Positions 52,491 to 64,000 of a stretch of DNA of 64,000 bases are shown here, in pieces; the first letter of the stretch is position 1; each line of letters opens with the position of its first letter. The translations under genes and the position numbers were made by a program. The stretch lies in NCBI GenBank assembly GCA_009869945.1, contig WIXG01000122.1, positions 1-64,000 on the forward strand, written 5' to 3'. Origin of the DNA: Mesaphorura yosii. Taxonomy: Eukaryota; Arthropoda; Collembola; Poduromorpha; Tullbergiidae. Below the pieces are notes generated by a model that did not search any database, was not told the origin of the DNA, and was given only the letters and a program-made list of their open reading frames with translations.

Positions 52491-55400
52491 ATGGCAATTT
52501 TGGAGCCGATTCTCTTCGTCCTTCTGGTTATCCCAATCTCGTGTTTTATGGTCACCATCTTCGTCCTCGCCGCTCTCGGAAAGTCGCTTGGATTTCGGAA
52601 GAAGTACGTCGAATTCCTTCTCTGGATCTTTGAGGTAAGTTCAGACAGCGTTTTAGCTTCAACTTTTAGTTCGAACGAGTAATTATCGATACAGACTTCT
52701 CAGTTTTGTTTAATGAGATCAAGATCAAGAGGTTCATACAATTCTAACGAGCAGATGCAAACCTAATGTAAATGACCGCTTTTGAATCAAGTCCTTTGAT
52801 CTGCCAAAATTTCACAATTCGCAGTGTTTCATCTTTTATCTGCAAGTTGGATCAATTGACTTGGCCTGAGCCGAGCTAAAATTAACACTGATAAAGCGAT
52901 CAATCCTCCCGAGCAAGTCTTCAAGGTCAAACCAGTCGTAGTCGTATTCGTGTCCAGCACGGCATAAGCATTTGGCAGTGGGCATTTTTCACATTATCTT
53001 ATGGCTTGTTTATTCTTCGTGTACACGCGTGAGTCAGACGTATTTATATTCTTCCAGCTTGAGCTTGCGTGTCTTGGTTGAGTTGGACTCGACTGACCTT
53101 GGCACTTCTGCAAACGCGTTACCTGTTACAGTACATCATTGCGAATTTCGATTCCAGGACGATTTGGATATTATTTTGATGCGATTACCTGTCCCGCCCA
53201 TTTCAAGTCCAGGGCAAGCCAAGATTTATTCTGCATTCGCCTTCCCGCTGCGACATTTGACATTTGCATTGTTCTCGATGAATTGCAAATTATTGGTACA
53301 CGTGTGAGAGTGAGTTGAGTAGGTCGTCGAGCGAGTTGCGAGTGAACTCATTGTGTTACTGTGACACATATTTCATTTTTTCATTGCACATGGAGATGAC
53401 TCATCCTGTCCATGCATGGCAAAAATTGTGTGATTACGATTTCGACGGTCATTGTCATTTGTCACCGTGCCGCGCGGCATTGCTCGCGTCGCAGATCAAT
53501 TTTGGGTGAAAATGCTAGTTTTCACAAGCCATTTAGTTGATGTCTAGTATTATTTGCCTCGTCGATTGTCGGATGAGTTTTTATTTTGCACACGTTACTG
53601 TTCTACCTCAAGCGTCATGTCAGTCAGTCGAAGCGATTGGTTGATTGCGATTGACGTGACAGGCATGCATTTCTGAATAATCTCCACTTTGCTCTTAATC
53701 CTGGTCCGGTCGGTGCAAATGAACTTTGCTTTAACAAGCTTAAGTGATAAAATGGCTTTACTTTTCTCACTTTTCTGTACCTCTTTGCAAAGGAGTGTTA
53801 CTCAGTTAAACATTTTGCCATATCGCATCAGCCGTAAAATCCTTAAAATCGGTTTATATTTTACAATTCCCGTTTACCACAAATTCATTTAATATAGAAT
53901 GAAAAAGTAATACAAGGAATATCCATTTGCAGATTGCGGGCTGCATTTCATACGGGATATGTGCATCCGTGTATTAAAATTGCAATTCTAAATTTTAAGA
54001 CGAGTATCAAGCATGATGATGACCGTGATTGCCAGAGGAAATGAAAACGGTGATTTCACATTACAATTGTGAATCACAATCGTGGTTCTCTGTCGGTAAT
54101 GCGAATGAAATGCGTGGCAATGGCATGTGAATGTGAAATGACGTGTCTGCAATGTATATATATGATTTGGTAAACAAGCACACCTCTTTTTTGCCAATTG
54201 CTACGCTGTGATTGGTGAAAACTCTTGTCAGAATGTCAGCCTTTATTATGCTACTAAATACAAAGTAAAAGTTTGTAAAGTTTGCACTGCATTGCATGTT
54301 CAGTTTTTGTAACTGGCGAGACTTGTTTCGTTTAGAAAGAAAAGTGCAGTAATTCGCTTTTGCAATCCTGTTGTGTCTGGAAATTATTTTGGCAGGCATG
54401 GAACTGAACCAATTACGATTATTATATTTACGATTGCTTAATTGCTTAATGGAGACTTAATTTTATTGTTTCACCGTCGCAATTCGCAAATGTCACTCGC
54501 TAACGTATACGCATACGCAAATGTTGGATAATTGCATCTGTATTGATCTTCCAGAGTCCTTGAAAGGTTGAGCTCGCTATTTTCCTAATGTAATTTGCGG
54601 CATTGACGAGAAGACATACGAACGGTTGACTTTTACTCGGATAGATTATTTCTACAAAATAAACTGCGCCGTTGCACTGCACTGCGGGCGGGGAGGCACG
54701 AACAAGTAATTTTCCATGCCTGAATTCAAACTTTATGTACACAGAAAATTTACTCCACGTACGCCGTTGTTCGTTTGCCAGAAGCCGCACATGCCAAAGG
54801 CGAAGACTTTTAGTCAGGGTCACCGTGAAAGCTTTTGAATCCGATTAGTACTTGACGTGTGCAAGGAAGTTCTAAAATATGATAAACTAGTTTGTGCAAA
54901 TGTCAAGTGTGCAGATGCTAAGATACATAGATGTATCTGATGTATCTCAAATTTTTTCAGCATTCTGGACGATTCTGTTTTGAACACGAAACGTAGCATA
55001 CATTTCTGTCACTATGCTTTTTAATTATGTTGGACATCATTTTCCTGATCTCTGAGTACAGAGTACTCGAATTTTAAGAACTTATGTACTTGAAATTTGA
55101 ATTTGTACTTTCGTGTGAAACAATGTTCACGTTCAACAGATACTTGAGTTTTGACAACACATTTAACGCAAATTGCAATTGAAACTGTTCTCCACAAAAT
55201 GGCATGATATCTTTCAGAGTTGACATGGTCAGCAATGACTCAAGTAATTCAAGCAGAAAAATGCATCTCGTCTTGCCTTGCAAAACACCAATTTGCGATT
55301 GCGAATAAATAATGAACCTTCAGGCTATCACGTGATATAAATCATCTTCGGCTCATATTTCTAAATGCATTAAACATCTTTACGCAATTTCTTAATTGAG

Positions 55401-58400
55401 TTGATTCTAAGATTTATTGCTTGAGTTGCACAAATTTTCATTATCGACGATCGCTCGTCTCTGTGCTGCAGTAATGAAAGTTGGCAATGTCAAAGTCAAG
55501 GTTGCATGCACTTAACTTCAATGATATCGGTTGAGCCAAGCCAACTGTCAAGAGTTCGAATGGGGAGTGACCTTTAGCCCACCGTCCGCCATCCTGCTGC
55601 TGTGAGATTCCTGAGTGTTCACTCCGAGAAGAGATCAAATCCATGCCCGTCCATCTGTTCTTACATCATTGGGATCACGATTAGTAAAAAAAAAACCGTA
55701 GCTTTGTCCTCGCCTCGCCTGTACATTGTATTGTAACTGTCTCCATCGAATAGCATGACATATATTGATACAAGTCCCACTTTCCTCTGTGCATATTCGT
55801 AAGATTAAGCCTGATAAAGCGAGTAGACAAACAATTGCTTGCAGGCACAACCACAACATAAATTCATCAATTCATGTCACACATCCGAATTCGAATATAC
55901 AATTTACTCGGCTCCAAGTCGGAAAGTGGCACAGCTAGCCACAGCCGAAACACAGTTCACAGATCGCAAAATTCATCATTCATTGTGGCTATGACAGCGA
56001 CCGATTGCCGATTGGGTGCCGGCAGTGCTGGTTTCAATAAGCATGCATTGCTTGACATTTGGCATTGCTGTAGCCCACCGGCAAATGACAATTGGAAATG
56101 TGAGGCTGTCGTTTAAACAAACGCTTAAGCGCTACGCATGCATACAAGCCTTCAATGATTCAATGCTACATTCACAATGTTCCTGTCACGAATTTGACGA
56201 GTGCTCGCAGTGTAATTAAACTGTGTACGTTTAAATGCGTAAGCAAAAGGTTTATTACTGCTGCATTGAATTATGGTCTTTGGTGTTGATGCTTTGGCTT
56301 TTTCTGTACTGTACTGATTCGAGAGAAAGAAAGAACGCCAACACAATGCGAATGCGACGGACCAAAGGGAAGTGCAGTGCAGATTTGCAGATTGCTTTCA
56401 AGGCCCTCGCCGCCGCTGTCATTTAAGCGAGCAATTTATGGTCGTGTTAAGCTGAATAGTACTTAAATGAATGGTTACGTAATTCCTTCAATTACAGCAG
56501 CAGCGGCAAGGCAATTGGAAATTGCAGAGCATAGCAGAGATAAATTTTGCAGACCCATTGTGAAGTACAAGCTTGGCTCACTGATCTATTCTGCAATTGC
56601 GTAAGAAGCAACGGTAGAGCAAACGCAAAGGCAAAAGCAAAAAATCCGCAAACCAGTTGATTAGCGCAGCATCACAAGACCAGAGATCAACTCTGGCGAA
56701 GTATTCCTCACATTCACGTGTCCAGCACAGGATCAGCACGAGCCTTTGCTCGATTACTGGTTATGGTCTCTTTGTCGCAACACATCTTGATTGCTCTAAC
56801 TTACACCCGTGACCGGTGGCCTGAACTGGAAATGGAAGCCGATAAAGAGTTCTGTCATGCTATCGATGAATGCAGCCGGCAGGCAGACCGCAACCGGCCT
56901 TTGCCCTGCTCCAGTTTTAGTTTTCTCGATGCAAGATGCATATTCACCAATCTCCGCGGCTGCGAGCCAGAGCTGAGCTTTGACTTGACTGCTTTGACTT
57001 TGACCGTTTCTCACTTTGATCCGTATTTTTGGGGTTATCTGCCCTCATGCTGCATGCGTGAAACTTGAATGATGCAGGAGAGGAAGTTTGAAGTTCAGAA
57101 TGAAGATATGAGCGATTGACTGACCAAATGAATGACGACTTGGCTAGACCCAAATAATAAAGTACAAAGCAGACGCCTGGACTTTAGAATCTTTTGATAT
57201 GAAAATTAGGCTGTACGGTGTGACGCACAAGACACAAGGCAGGATCGTTCAACTATTCGTTGTTCCTGGTACATTATATCATTAAATTACTGCATGGTCC
57301 AGTCGGTCAAAGATCATACGACAAAGTAAATAAAAACATGCAAGGGTAATGCTCAGCTTGAAAGCAAAGAAAGGTCATGACGCTCATGAAAAAGTTTACT
57401 AAAGTTTATGAAGCTAGTTGACTTTATTTTTTGACTCTCTGGGCCTGCGTCCTTTGGATTGTTGACTTTTTTTAGTGTAACAAATTTATGTTTTAAATTT
57501 TCTTGCACAAATTGTAATCAAAGTGTTGTTGATTTTCTAATTTTCATTAAAGTTTTAACTGTACTATTTGTTTGACGATGAGCCTCTGTGAACCCAAAAC
57601 GTTTAAAAAGCTTCTCTGCAATGTTTTGGCAAAGTGTGGCTTGAAGATGTGTCACGTAATTTGACAAATCACGGAAATGCTGCCGTTTTTCCATCAGCGA
57701 ATGTTGTACAGCAAATCGGTATGCGAATGTGAAACGGGATAACTTTCACGAATACTAAATACGAAATCTTGATTTTGATCTCAATTCGAATAGACAAGGC
57801 AGAAACGTCGCGGTGCTGCATTAAAGCCAATGATTACTCAATGCAAATTTTGTTTTGCTTCCAGTATGGACACAAGCGAATTGAGCATGCTCAGCACAGT
57901 AAGAGGGGAGAGGAAGAAGACGAAGATGACGCGTCCGACAGCGGTCAAGAATCTGGAGAAGAGGACGCCAACAGCAACTTGAACAAGAATTTGGTTGTTC
58001 AGGGAAAGTCGCCCGCAGATTTGAAGAAGAGCAGCTTTAGTCATCTGTCAACTCACGACAATGACACGGCCACTGTGATCAGAAACCGAACCAATTCATT
58101 CAGAACCAGATACCCTTCTGGATCGGTGAGAATATTAATATTTCTGCAAGTTGGCCTTCAATTCACTCGTACATCTTCAATTTTCATTGTAATTTTCAGG
58201 ATGAGCCTGCTGACTACGAATTCTCGGATGCGTTCGAGTTTATTCAGTCTGGAATCGAAGCAATTGTGAATGATCAAGTAACCCAACGCTTTGTCGCAGA
58301 AGAATTGAAGGTACATGACATGAATGAATTCTAATTCCGGTCCCTTAAGCTTTACCCGACCCGACCTGACTGCAAAAATTGAACCTTGAACGTAAGAAGT

Positions 58401-61233
58401 TGCCCTGCAAGATTTCCTAATCCGAGCAGAGTTCAATTACTTTCAAGGGAGTCGAGGCAGGGCAAGATTGCCATTACACCATGGAGAACTTGAACTTTAT
58501 CACTTGCTGCTAAAATTTTTCTTTCAACATGATACAAGATTGTGCAATGAGTACGCAAAAGCAAAGAGCAGCAACATCTCCCACAAGATTAGCAAGACAG
58601 AATGCGAATAATTTAAACCCTTTGCGCAATGCTCGTGACTCATTTTAAATCATGCGAAATTAATGAAATGTTTTTATGCATTTATAGTCATGGAATTTAC
58701 TGACAAGAACAAATCGTCATTACGAGTTCATTTCTTGGCGTCTTTCACTTGTCTGGGTTGCTGGATTCTTCCTTCGCTATTGCATCATGCTCCCAGTGCG
58801 CATCACCATTTGCTTTATTGGGGTGAGTCCAGAAGTTTCTTAAATTATATTATAAATCGATGACATTCGAAGATAAATATATTTTAACAAGATGTAGAAT
58901 TTATTTGTCACATGCAGAGGGATTATTAGTATGTAATGTAATAGCTTTGGGTCTTCTGGGTGCAGAAACGTAGAAAGAAAGCTGTTTCACGCCTATCGCG
59001 TTCACATTCTATTTTTGGTAGCACATTTGTTAATCTTTCACATTTTATTTTCTTTGGCTTTCTTTCTTGGGTTTGGGTTTCGTACTTTGCGTCTTCCTTT
59101 CGGGTTTCGATTTCTTGGGAATTTGATATGCTTTTACTTTAATTGGGGAACTTGATAGACCTCCACTCTTTTGCTTCTGACGTTTGTGATTGGTCTAATT
59201 CCGGAGAGGTGGGCCATCAAGCAAGAGCTGAATGACGTCGCATCGAAATTTTCGTTTCGACTTCTCTCTCGTGCTTTCTCTGCAATTATAACCTACCATC
59301 AAGTGGGAAACAAACCCAAGAAGCATGGGATTTGTGTGGCTAATCACACATCGCCCATCGATGTTGTAGTTCTCGCCTGCGACTCTTCGTACGCAATGGT
59401 ACAGCGGCATCAGAGTCTGTCTGGATCGGACGCTCTGAATTTTTCCTTATAAATGTGCCTACGCTTTTTCTGTCTATCGTTTGCCTGACGCTTACACGCT
59501 TTCTAAAACACTCCCGCTGCATGCATTGTACTCTGAGATGTCAGCACTCTAATTAAAGTCTAGGTGTATTTTAATAATTTTAATAACATTAAGAAATTCA
59601 GCGACGGAAGACGTGGAATTCTAGTTGTGTAGTTAATTGATTGACTTGACTTGCATTCCCCCAAAGGTTCTGTGTTTGACGCTTTCAACATTCCTGATTG
59701 GCCTTATCCCCTTTGGCTACACAAAATTTCGCCGGGACGTCTACCACTTTGTGTGTCATCACACGTTTGGACTCTTGTCATGGGCAATCTCAGCTGTCAT
59801 TCGTCACCACGACGTGGAGAACAGACCTGGAAGTAAGTTTTACAATGCATTGCATGCCATTTATAATTGCATTATTGCGTAATTGTACTAAATTGCGTTC
59901 AAATTTGACTTTCTTTTAGGTTGGAAGCTTACGAATGACGGGAAATTAGTGAAAGCCAAAGAAGGCCACGGATTTGGTGGTATTTGTGTAGCTAACCACA
60001 CTTCTCCAATTGACGTCCTCGTTTTAGCAGTTGATAATACTTACGACTTGGTAAATTTTACATGATATATCGGGGAAACTATTGGGCTATCTTGGCTATC
60101 TAAATTATGGCCAGTCGCTAACGATAATGAGTTTCGAGTCACAATAATTAGTTCTGAATTAGTTCAGTTTCTTGCCTAAACTTGTGATTACGCTTTTTCA
60201 TTTTTTTATGCCACCGTTTCACTGCATGAAGTTTTTGCATGCACAATTGCAGGAACGTTGATTTCCGTCTCAAGTCGCCATTTCTCGTTCTGTCTTTGTC
60301 CGCACTCGCTTTTGTAATCAACTCTCCTCCATTGAATAGTATTTTCATTGATGGCTTTTGAATGTATAGATTGGACAGAGCCACGGAGGCTTTCTCGGGG
60401 TCCTCCAACGGGCATTAGCTCGAGCTTCCTCTCATATCTGGTTTGAGAGATCAGAAATTAAGGACAGAAGCGCTGTCGCAAGAAGGTTCGTCACAAATTC
60501 GCTTTGTTGGTTTATTTTTAAGTGGAACCCATAAATTAATAATTTCTTGTATTGTGTCTGCAGATTAAAGGCGCACGTGGAGGATACGACAAAGTTACCT
60601 ATTCTCATTTTCCCGGAGGGAACCTGCATCAACAACAGTGCTGTCATGCAGTTTAAGAAAGGCTCGTTTGAAGTTGGGGGAATAATTTACCCTGTGGCGA
60701 TCAAGGTAAGATTGGGTCGTTATTTACTTATCGGCAGATTTAACACGCAGATTCAGAATTCTATGTTTTTATGCTTTTGCTGTAGTACGATCCACGTTTC
60801 GGTGATCCGTTCTGGAACTCGAGTGAGTTCTCCATGCTGCAGTATCTCTACATGATGATGACGTCCTGGGCGATCGTGTGCGATGTTTGGTATCTACCTC
60901 CCATGACCCGGAACCCGGGAGAGTGCTCCGTTGACTTTGCCAATAGAGTAAGTGCTTTAAATTAATTAAGAATTAAGAAATGGTAAGACTAAGACAAGGG
61001 CCATTGCGGTGCTCATCGTATTTCTTATTTAAACGCTGCAGGTCAAGAAAGAAATTGCGGACAAGGGTGGGTTGGTTGATCTCGACTGGGATGGCCAGCT
61101 GAAAAGGGCGCCGGCCAAGCCCGAATGGAAAGAAAAGCAGCAGTTGGAATACTCAAAGAAATTTGCAATCTCTTCTCGCCATATCGTTTCCAAAACCGAC
61201 GCAACCCGTGATAGTCCTAACCCAAGCACATAA
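52491..61233 (+). CDS. Glycerol-3-phosphate acyltransferase, GPAT3/4 type, with duplicated motif I exons
   Basis: Common exons: 52491-52634, 57865-58125, 58200-58310, 58688-58822, then a variable cassette, then 60370-60485, 60564-60705, 60786-60947 and 61042-61233. With 59159-59398 the protein is 500 residues; with 59667-59832 plus 59920-60050 it is 519 (human GPAT4 has 456). An ER membrane enzyme that acylates glycerol-3-phosphate to lysophosphatidate for phospholipid and triglyceride synthesis. Features: an N-terminal membrane segment, an acidic linker (about residues 60-80), SWNLLTRTN, motif I NHTSPID (HxxxxD) in the cassette, WFERSE, motif III FPEGTCINN, motif IV YPVAIKYDP, then TSWAIVCDVWYLPPMTR. 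Intron 1 is 5.2 kb. All splice sites are GT-AG and frames join exactly. Confidence 0.93.
52635..57864 (+). other. GPAT intron 1, 5.2 kb
   Basis: Between GTAAGTTC and TTGCTTCCAG. It is AT-rich with recurring short words; the ORFs inside (for example 56718-57068) lack family likeness. No nested gene or RNA was recognised. Confidence 0.7.
59159..59398 (+). CDS. GPAT cassette version 1 (single alternative exon)
   Basis: Eighty codons, phase 0 at both ends, with acceptor ACTTGATAG and donor GTACAG. It encodes the membrane-proximal helix LLTFVIGLIP, SAIITYHQVG and motif I GICVANHTSPIDVV, ending DSSYAM. It aligns with human GPAT4 without gaps in motif I and joins cleanly to the upstream CFIG and the downstream IGQSHGG. 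The acceptor has a poor pyrimidine tract, which may make inclusion regulated. Confidence 0.8.
59667..60050 (+). CDS. GPAT cassette version 2 (exon pair 59667-59832 and 59920-60050)
   Basis: Two exons totalling 99 codons, phase 0 at the outer ends, with an internal phase-1 intron of 87 bases. It encodes LSTFLIGLIPFGYTKFRRD, AISAVIRHHDVENRPG, then about 20 extra residues (SWKLTNDGKLVKAKEGHG) absent from version 1, then motif I GICVANHTSPIDVL, ending DNTYDL. It replaces the same segment of the enzyme as version 1. Splice consensus is better than for version 1 (CCCCCAAAG acceptor, GTAAGT donor). Confidence 0.85.
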
Positions 61234-61505: not shown

Positions 61506-63712
61506 TCAAGTAAAAAGATAACGAAACGAGCGGCTTCCATGTGAATAAAGATGATTGGCGTTTTCAAGTAGCTTTTCCTCATCCGACAACTCCTCAATGA
61601 ATAAAGTTCCATGCTGGTCTCGAGAGTATTCAAAGTCCGAAATGGTTAGATCTTCAGGAATGTCGACTGATCCTTCATACTCTCGTCTACCGCGTTCAAG
61701 TTCATATTTTGTGAGAGTCCGAGCAGTGATCTGAAAAAGGGCACAACAAAGAAAGCTGTAATCCATGTTTAACGCTTAAGGAATAGGTTGTGTAATATGT
61801 GAGAAAGAAAACTTACGTAGATGGTATTCGTCATGTACTCGAGCGTGATTTCTTTATTTTGGAATCCTTCAACCGGAAGCGTTGCAAAATATTTGTCAGA
61901 CGGGATTTGACGTTTCACAACTGGCTTAAGTGGATTCAAAGGATTTTTGTCTGGAGTACTGTAAAGTAATTATTAAGCTTGAACACTCGCGGGCCCTTGT
62001 TTTTAATTATGAATTGAAATTATCACACTTACTGTCGTTTAGCAAAAGTGTTGGCCGTTGTTGTATCGTAGAACGGGTAAATGACTCGACCATCCACAAC
62101 GTTGAAGCCCTTCTTGATCACAGGCAGCTGCTCAAGGTCCTTCTTGAATTTTGTGAGGATCTGCTGCACCCAAACCAGCGGTTGGCGAAGGCGTTTAAGA
62201 ACAGACGTCTCCAGCCATTCATTGACCTTCACAGTGTTCTTTCTGGGGTAATGCTTCTTCCGAGAAGGATCATCGACGTGGATTTTGGAGAATAACTCTG
62301 GCATTTCAACATTGAGGACACCGTCTCCAGACTTGGCGTTTTCTTGGAGCAGTTTCTTGTACTTTTTGACTCCAAATGGATCAGTGACCGAGTCGCCCAG
62401 TTTTCTGATGTGCTTGTATTTTTCCTGCAAATAAAATTCACGAGTCTTTCTAAGCATCTTTGAATTGATTTGATAGTTTGTGGCTTTGACTTACCGGTGG
62501 GTCAATTTGGTTTTGGATCTTTTCTAACTCTTCGTCTGCCTTCTTTGCGTACTCCTCCAGTTTCTTCGCATGAAGAGCTATTGGAATTTGAAACTGTAAT
62601 TCTTGAGCGGCCATCGCGTTTGCGTATCTCGTAAGCGCTTGCCAGTCGGTGTGATCGAAGTCAATCTTCGGATATTGATACCAAGCCTCCATCAGATGGG
62701 TTCTCTTGGAAGGGTCACTCGGTGGCGGGCCGAAGATCATGCTGGTGTCTTCCCTTTCTGTGAGTCGCATGCTTCCATTAATTGCAACCAGGGCTATCGT
62801 CTTTGGTGTCTTAGGCTTCGAAGGTGGTGCTGGTAGCTTCTTGGGGGAAGAAAATGAAATAGGCTTAGCTTTAGTTGCTGACGAAGTTGCCCTCGACTTG
62901 GGCTTCGGATGAACTTGTTTGTGATGCTCCAATGCCTCTGCTCTCTTCAGCAGCTCGACCAGGGCCTCGTGTCTTTCGGCAACCCCGGACGGGTGTTCTG
63001 GTTTACCCGCGTGTTCCACCAAAGCAGCATCAGGATAATGTCCAGGTCCAGCGACTGGGAATTCTGGAAGAGCAGGCTTCTCTGTAGTATTCTGAATGGA
63101 AGGGATCTTTCCTCCGACGATGTCACTTGAATTAATGTCAAACGGCTTGTGCTTCGATGGACCATCCGTAATCCCGAGACACCTGCGGCGCATAATCTTC
63201 ACAGCCAGAGCCTTCTGCATTCTTCGAAGCAAAACGTTGCCAGAGTTAGCGATTGTATTATGGTTTGTGATGAGATCCGTGAAGTCCGACTTGTCGTAGC
63301 AAGCAAGCGAGGAGCATTGACTCAAGAACCGGTTCTTCAGAATCGGCTTCCTCGGCTTGTAGTTCTGGTTAGGGAAGGGTAGTTGGAACTCCACTTCAGA
63401 TGGGGGCTCCAGTGCTTCTGATCCGACTGAGACCTTTGGGTTGAACTTGATTGTTGTAGTTTTAGGGGCTGGATCAGGAGTCGATTCAAATTTTCTTTCA
63501 TGCGTCTCCACATAATCAAACAGGTCCCTCAGGCGAGAAAGACTGTGAATTCTCTTACGTTGTTCCAGATGAATGCGAGTGTGGAATGTTCCAGTTTGGA
63601 CAGGTCCAGTGTGAAATGCGCCAGAGTGGAGAGTTCTAGTATCAGTTGTTGATCCAGTGTCTGTCAACAGTGAAGTTTGCTTTTTGGTGTATCTGACTGT
63701 CGACAACGCCAT
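61506..63712 (-). CDS. Uncharacterised 658-residue protein
   Basis: Four exons, 63712-62495, 62424-62033, 61958-61817 and 61730-61506, join in frame through GT-AG introns (phases 0, 2, 0). No signal peptide or membrane helix is seen. The start has short imperfect repeats (HSGAFHTGPVQTGTFHTR) resembling repeat modules of microtubule-binding proteins. A Pro/Lys-rich low-complexity stretch (about 265-305) follows, then a more ordered part: LTEREDTSMIFGPPPSDP, EAWYQYPKIDFDHTDWQALT and a Glu/Lys coiled-coil-like helix at about 380-405. Exons 2-4 are ordered and charged (DPFGVKKYKKLLQENAK, WLETSVLKRLRQPLVWVQ, ITARTLTKYELERGRREYEG). I do not recognise the family; an axonemal or cytoskeletal role is only a guess from composition. 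The ATG at 63712 is the first in a long open exon. Confidence 0.75.
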
Positions 63713-64000
63713 AGTGGATTAACAGGAATTAGTAGAGAAAGCAGCAGGAGATGAAAGCCGATTAACTGATTGTAATTTTGTATATCCCGATATTAAGTAC
63801 GAAGTAAAAAATTTTAATAGATAATTGGTTGCGCTCTAATCGTTTGAGACCAGATAAATAAATAAAACGAAAACACCGAGAGAAGAATGGCAACGGCAGA
63901 ACGAAAAGCCCAAAGCCGTAAAGCGAATTTGCTTAGAGGAAAGAATTCAGCAACACGCCCAGCATTTGTATTGAATTCGGACTCTGGGAAGAGAATTTGC
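63713..64000. other. Upstream region of the 658-residue gene
   Basis: Presumed 5' UTR and promoter of the minus-strand gene. It is AT-rich from 63760 to 63850, with nothing else identified before the window ends. Confidence 0.35.

Follow-up and report, generated by a model that had tools for sequence, protein, structure and literature searches.

Two tandem catalytic-motif cassettes in a predicted GPAT3/4-type acyltransferase gene of Mesaphorura yosii, a probable case of mutually exclusive splicing

At the endoplasmic reticulum, GPAT3/4 enzymes catalyse the reaction with which the synthesis of triacylglycerols and phospholipids begins, and mammals have two GPAT3/4 genes. A swap of tandem exons exists in human ketohexokinase (KHK), where single exons are exchanged and both isoforms are established; that enzyme is a sugar kinase, whereas the present case concerns an acyltransferase. 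Among arthropods, the muscle myosin heavy chain and Dscam genes likewise have homologous exons side by side that code for one region of the protein in a common frame (PMC3923563 and PMC3912159). Unlike these two, the locus described here encodes a lipid acyltransferase, one of its two choices is made of two exons and is 19 aa longer, and its splicing is predicted. It lies in the first 64,000 nt of contig WIXG01000122.1 (assembly GCA_009869945.1), the stretch analysed as a whole and called the window below. An earlier sequence-only reading had proposed that the segment of the enzyme reaching from the membrane-proximal helix to the end of motif I is present there twice in a row, as mutually exclusive alternatives.

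The gene (52491-61233, plus strand) belongs to the acyltransferase family PF01553, as do human GPAT3 and GPAT4 and fly dGPAT4 (CG3209), and comprises eight coding exons common to both forms plus the two cassettes. The spliced stretches matched this family with 92 bits (314 aa, with cassette 1) and 85 bits (333 aa, with cassette 2) against a cut-off of 23, and the motifs NHTSPID (HxxxxD) and FPEGTC can both be read directly in the gene. The product is a putative GPAT3/4-type glycerol-3-phosphate acyltransferase, assigned to this type by comparison with human GPAT3/4. The predicted proteins are 500 aa long with cassette 1 and 519 aa with cassette 2.

All exons are on the plus strand. The first coding exon (52491-52634) provides the start Met and an N-terminal hydrophobic helix in an open frame with the donor GAG/GTAAGT, and its product is similar to the N-terminus of a paralogue on contig C25. 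It is followed by an exon for an acidic linker (57865-58125, GT-AG, phase 0), an exon reading DEPADYEF...AEELK (58200-58310) and the upstream flanking exon (58688-58822, SWNLLTRTN...CFIG), which ends in phase 0 at an ordinary donor. Beyond the cassettes lie the downstream flanking exon (60370-60485, IGQSHGG...) with a weak acceptor, the exon with the FPEGTC motif inside the PF01553 match (60564-60705), a further exon (60786-60947), and the last coding exon with the stop codon (61042-61233). Adjoining the gene, a 422-aa open frame on the minus strand (62450-63718), without a Pfam match above the cut-off, is possibly an exon of a tail-to-tail neighbour gene.

Between the two flanking exons, the proposed tandem duplication of the motif I segment is indeed present, in the one-exon and two-exon layout that had been described. 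Cassette 1 is a single exon of 80 aa (59159-59398, 240 nt, phase 0 at both ends) that runs from the membrane-proximal helix to motif I, NHTSPID. After an inter-cassette intron of 268 nt (59399-59666), cassette 2 encodes 99 aa (297 nt) in two exons: the first (59667-59832, 55 codons, phase 0 to 1) extends from the membrane-proximal helix to ENRPG, and the second (59920-60050, phase 1 to 0) holds an extra loop and again NHTSPID. Identical residues occupy 40 of the 80 aligned positions, with an alignment score of 150, whereas none of 500 shuffles scored above 32, and in a tblastn search within the window each cassette finds the other (E 6e-13 and 7e-14). The finer points of the reading also held: the His and Asp of HxxxxD are present in both cassettes, every boundary is GT/AG, the outer boundaries are in phase 0, and both versions fuse in frame to CFIG upstream and to IGQSHGG downstream. 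The first 15 residues of each cassette would likewise align to the human enzyme without a gap.

Within the window, tblastn revealed no third copy of the cassette (all remaining matches at E of at least 1.8) and no second copy of the gene's other coding exons (further matches at E of at least 0.16). Across the whole genome, with E up to 0.1, cassette 2 matched only itself, cassette 1 and the C25 paralogue. The genome also contains 66 matches to the cuticle protein family PF00379, which fits an arthropod, whereas a look for COX1 found none. In viral and prokaryote contig collections, 13 and 199 stretches fit a search pattern, none of them confirmed as a relative.

The divergence between the two cassettes follows the codon structure, with 35, 19 and 58 of 80 codons differing at positions 1, 2 and 3, a dN of 0.45, and a dS that is saturated and has no value. 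Since 58 of 80 third positions differ as against 19 of 80 second positions, the duplication is old and both versions have been maintained as protein; judged from the codons, purifying selection has acted on them for a long time. Against the C25 paralogue, the corresponding counts are 33, 19 and 55 of 80 for cassette 1, and 40, 21 and 48 of 81 for cassette 2. The frame of cassette 1 is stop-free, a property shared by only 81 of 5000 mononucleotide shuffles.

Two arginines of cassette 1 (codons 59258-59260 and 59270-59272) are found in the C25 paralogue and in human GPAT3/4. Cassette 2 has Gly and Trp at these two positions and is extended by 18 residues immediately ahead of motif I, at the site of its internal intron. 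Because of the lost arginines and the additional residues, cassette 2 looks like the derived version. Cassette 1 is identical at 37 of 79 positions to the human GPAT4 sequence used for comparison. When solved structures were searched with the cassette 1 form, one relative was returned, the bacterial 1-acylglycerol-3-phosphate acyltransferase 5kym (PlsC, E 0.0014), whose alignment starts at the end of the first helix of cassette 1. As the cassette covers the junction of the membrane anchor and motif I, it could reasonably influence which acyl chain is chosen or how the enzyme sits in the membrane; a difference between the two forms in acyl-CoA preference or location is conjecture.

The paralogue is a second GPAT3/4-type gene on contig C25 at about 388.7-390.1 kb (L014:3916-5287), encoding 433 aa from the first suitable Met and carrying a single version of the cassette segment. 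This version is closer to cassette 1 (43/80 identical) than to cassette 2 (38/81), and 130 of 189 residues are identical to the window gene over the C-terminal exons. The C25 gene has one intron only (L014:4407-4476), a phase-2 intron that lies 8 nt further downstream than the boundary position of the window gene, whose other introns are absent from it. From this layout, it appears to be an RNA-mediated copy that gained one intron later. In a tree of the cassettes, C25 and human rows, cassette 2 and C25 were grouped with 41% support, too little to order the C25 split relative to the duplication of the cassettes. If the copy postdates the duplication, it would preserve, as a fossil, the splicing of one cassette alone.

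The splice sites were rated with donor and acceptor matrices trained within this genome, on 37 introns deduced from its myosin genes; 79 of the 93 match rows were used, and 10 of 47 candidate pairs were left out. Among the ten acceptors of the gene, the three lowest scores belong to cassette 1, the downstream flanking exon and cassette 2; among its ten donors, the two lowest belong to cassette 1 and to the outer end of cassette 2. The acceptor and donor of cassette 1, both very weak, rank last of the ten with the genome matrix and with a generic matrix, two matrices that are not independent because the training of the first began from the second. These two sites and the downstream exon acceptor score below all 37 comparison introns, and the upstream exon donor is ordinary, at their 35th percentile; the comparison scores lean high, as the matrices were refined on introns that they had themselves selected. 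Taken together, the six choice sites, upstream donor included, are weaker than the other fourteen (one-sided p 0.0003 with the genome matrix and 0.004 with the generic one), in a grouping made by position but after the scores had been seen. Under regulated alternative splicing, such weak sites would be expected at the junctions of the cassette choice.

The 1010 nt of cassette introns contain four copies of TGCATG, all in the sense orientation (59518, 59851, 60223 and 60236), against 0.44 expected by shuffling; none of 2000 shuffles reached four. This hexamer, the motif of RBFOX proteins, was picked after being seen and ranks 9th of 769 hexamers, with an uncorrected p of 0.0027 that is not significant across all hexamers, and the cluster is a lead only. 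A search for the Fox-1 C-terminal family gave no match, with an equally silent control.

The proposal of mutually exclusive splicing was upheld in part: the constrained tandem duplication and the weak choice sites favour it, and its strict form, in which every transcript holds exactly one cassette, is a prediction for which no enforcing lock was found. Judged by the traits of mutually exclusive exons given in PMC3923563 and PMC5740500, the two versions are homologous neighbours (40/80, above all 500 shuffles) with the same frame and compatible splice sites, cassette 2 having an inner boundary in phase 1; a mechanical lock, which is common but not required, was not seen. The lengths of 240 and 297 nt are both divisible by 3, which leaves no frameshift lock, and double inclusion and double skipping both keep the frame open. 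Nor is a steric lock evident, with 268 nt between the cassettes, whereas the 37 introns inferred for comparison range down to 63 nt. By eye, without scoring, none of the four donors involved (GTGAGT, GTACAG, GTAAGT and GTAAAT) is of the U12 type. As for competing intron pairing of the docking/selector kind, the whole-intron duplex energies of six intron pairs were matched by 40-87 of 100 shuffles, and the best exact complement (10 nt, pairing the inter-cassette intron with the one that divides cassette 2) was reached by 5 of 200 shuffles for this one of the six pairs. With no evident lock or pairing, exclusivity would rest on unseen regulation and on the logic of the protein, whose catalytic domain needs one motif I directly next to its remaining part.

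The weak sites are at the same time the best argument for another scenario, in which cassette 1 is an old alternative exon falling out of use and nearly all mRNA contains cassette 2 only. Both sites of cassette 1 fall below every comparison intron and are the weakest in the gene with both matrices, yet the downstream acceptor, needed by both forms, also lies below all 37, and a low score alone does not denote disuse. Moreover, cassette 1 is free of stops and keeps NHTSPID and both arginines, the C25 paralogue resembles it more than it does cassette 2, and its codon pattern against C25 (33/19/55 of 80) is that of a constrained protein, all of which makes disuse unlikely in our judgement. The open frame and an inter-cassette intron long enough for splicing would equally permit an mRNA with both cassettes, in whose protein product helix and motif I would each occur two times. 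Only one copy could then adjoin the rest of the catalytic domain, although both are constrained with their motif, and the C25 paralogue does with a single copy; we consider double inclusion very unlikely.

That an allele or a paralogue fragment was stitched into the gene during assembly has to be considered in a draft genome of 1127 contigs (93 Mb), but half of the residues differ and the third positions are nearly saturated, which is too far for alleles. At E up to 0.1, the genome-wide search left only the C25 gene and cassette 1 as matches of cassette 2 besides itself, and both cassettes fit their flanks in exact phase, so that an artefact is hardly credible. We regard regulated use of one cassette at a time, giving two enzyme forms from one gene, as the likely explanation; the duplication, the frames, the constraint and the weak choice sites are the basis that the sequence provides for it.

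Mechanistically, a tandem duplication inside the gene would have left it with a pair of alternative cassettes, each encoding the last membrane-proximal helix, a linker helix and motif I. The upstream exon would be spliced to either cassette and the chosen cassette then to the downstream exon, yielding a 500-aa form with the canonical-looking cassette 1 or a 519-aa form with the diverged cassette 2, the rest of the protein being common. We infer that the choice would be made by regulated competition between weak sites and not by a lock of frame or spacing, and that motif I may face the membrane or the acyl tunnel differently in the two forms. Probably, cassette 2 is the default and cassette 1 needs help, this direction being less certain than one-at-a-time use itself. 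If the proposal is right, a single gene diversifies by swapping the segment with the catalytic His-Asp and the membrane anchor, and it would offer a natural experiment on acyl-chain choice with two proteins that are the same except for a stretch of 80 to 99 residues.

As such, the GPAT cassettes are a probable further case of mutually exclusive tandem exons, a known kind; the unusual points are the swap of a catalytic motif and the pairing of a one-exon with a two-exon version. The predictor defaults given in PMC3923563 ask for a length difference of at most 20 residues and the same frame. The cassettes differ by 19 aa when taken whole (80 vs 99) and by 25 when cassette 1 is set against the first exon of cassette 2 alone. 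An exon-by-exon predictor with those defaults would be expected to miss the pair, because cassette 2 is split, its inner boundary is in phase 1, and its first exon is 25 codons shorter than cassette 1.

Among the literature matches listed, as far as their text was available, no description of a tandem motif I cassette in GPAT genes was found. The word 'acyltransferase' is absent from the main texts of five papers on mutually exclusive exons (PMC3303723, PMC3923563, PMC9741552, PMC7954323 and PMC5740500), and 'GPAT' from those of PMC3303723, PMC3923563, PMC9741552 and PMC5740500. In the set analysed in PMC7954323, catalytic sites are affected by 9 mutually exclusive events, which suggests that catalytic-site swaps are known but few. 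In a network of developmentally fluctuating fly exons, the entry 'CG3209:4' appears in the top-regulator column of an exon-module table (PMC4603746), the available part of which does not state what CG3209 exon 4 is; CG3209 is dGPAT4 (PMC5035145). Given this listing, similar exons may already be annotated in Drosophila. More tentatively, and with doubt outweighing belief, the cassettes could belong to an ancient arthropod GPAT4 switch of the catalytic-motif segment, controlled by stage or tissue and altering acyl choice or placement, with fly CG3209 exon 4 as the same switch.

Two observations concern the myosin genes of this genome. A muscle-like myosin heavy chain (L016; C369:3292-5373, minus strand) has its whole motor domain (Pfam 1-679) in one open frame of 1862 aa, which leaves no room for alternative exons there; muscle myosin genes without such alternative exons are reported in copepods (PMC3912159). 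A further myosin-head match (15-636, at C457:5235-7637, L018) contains two in-frame TGA codons, which reflect either introns or a broken copy.
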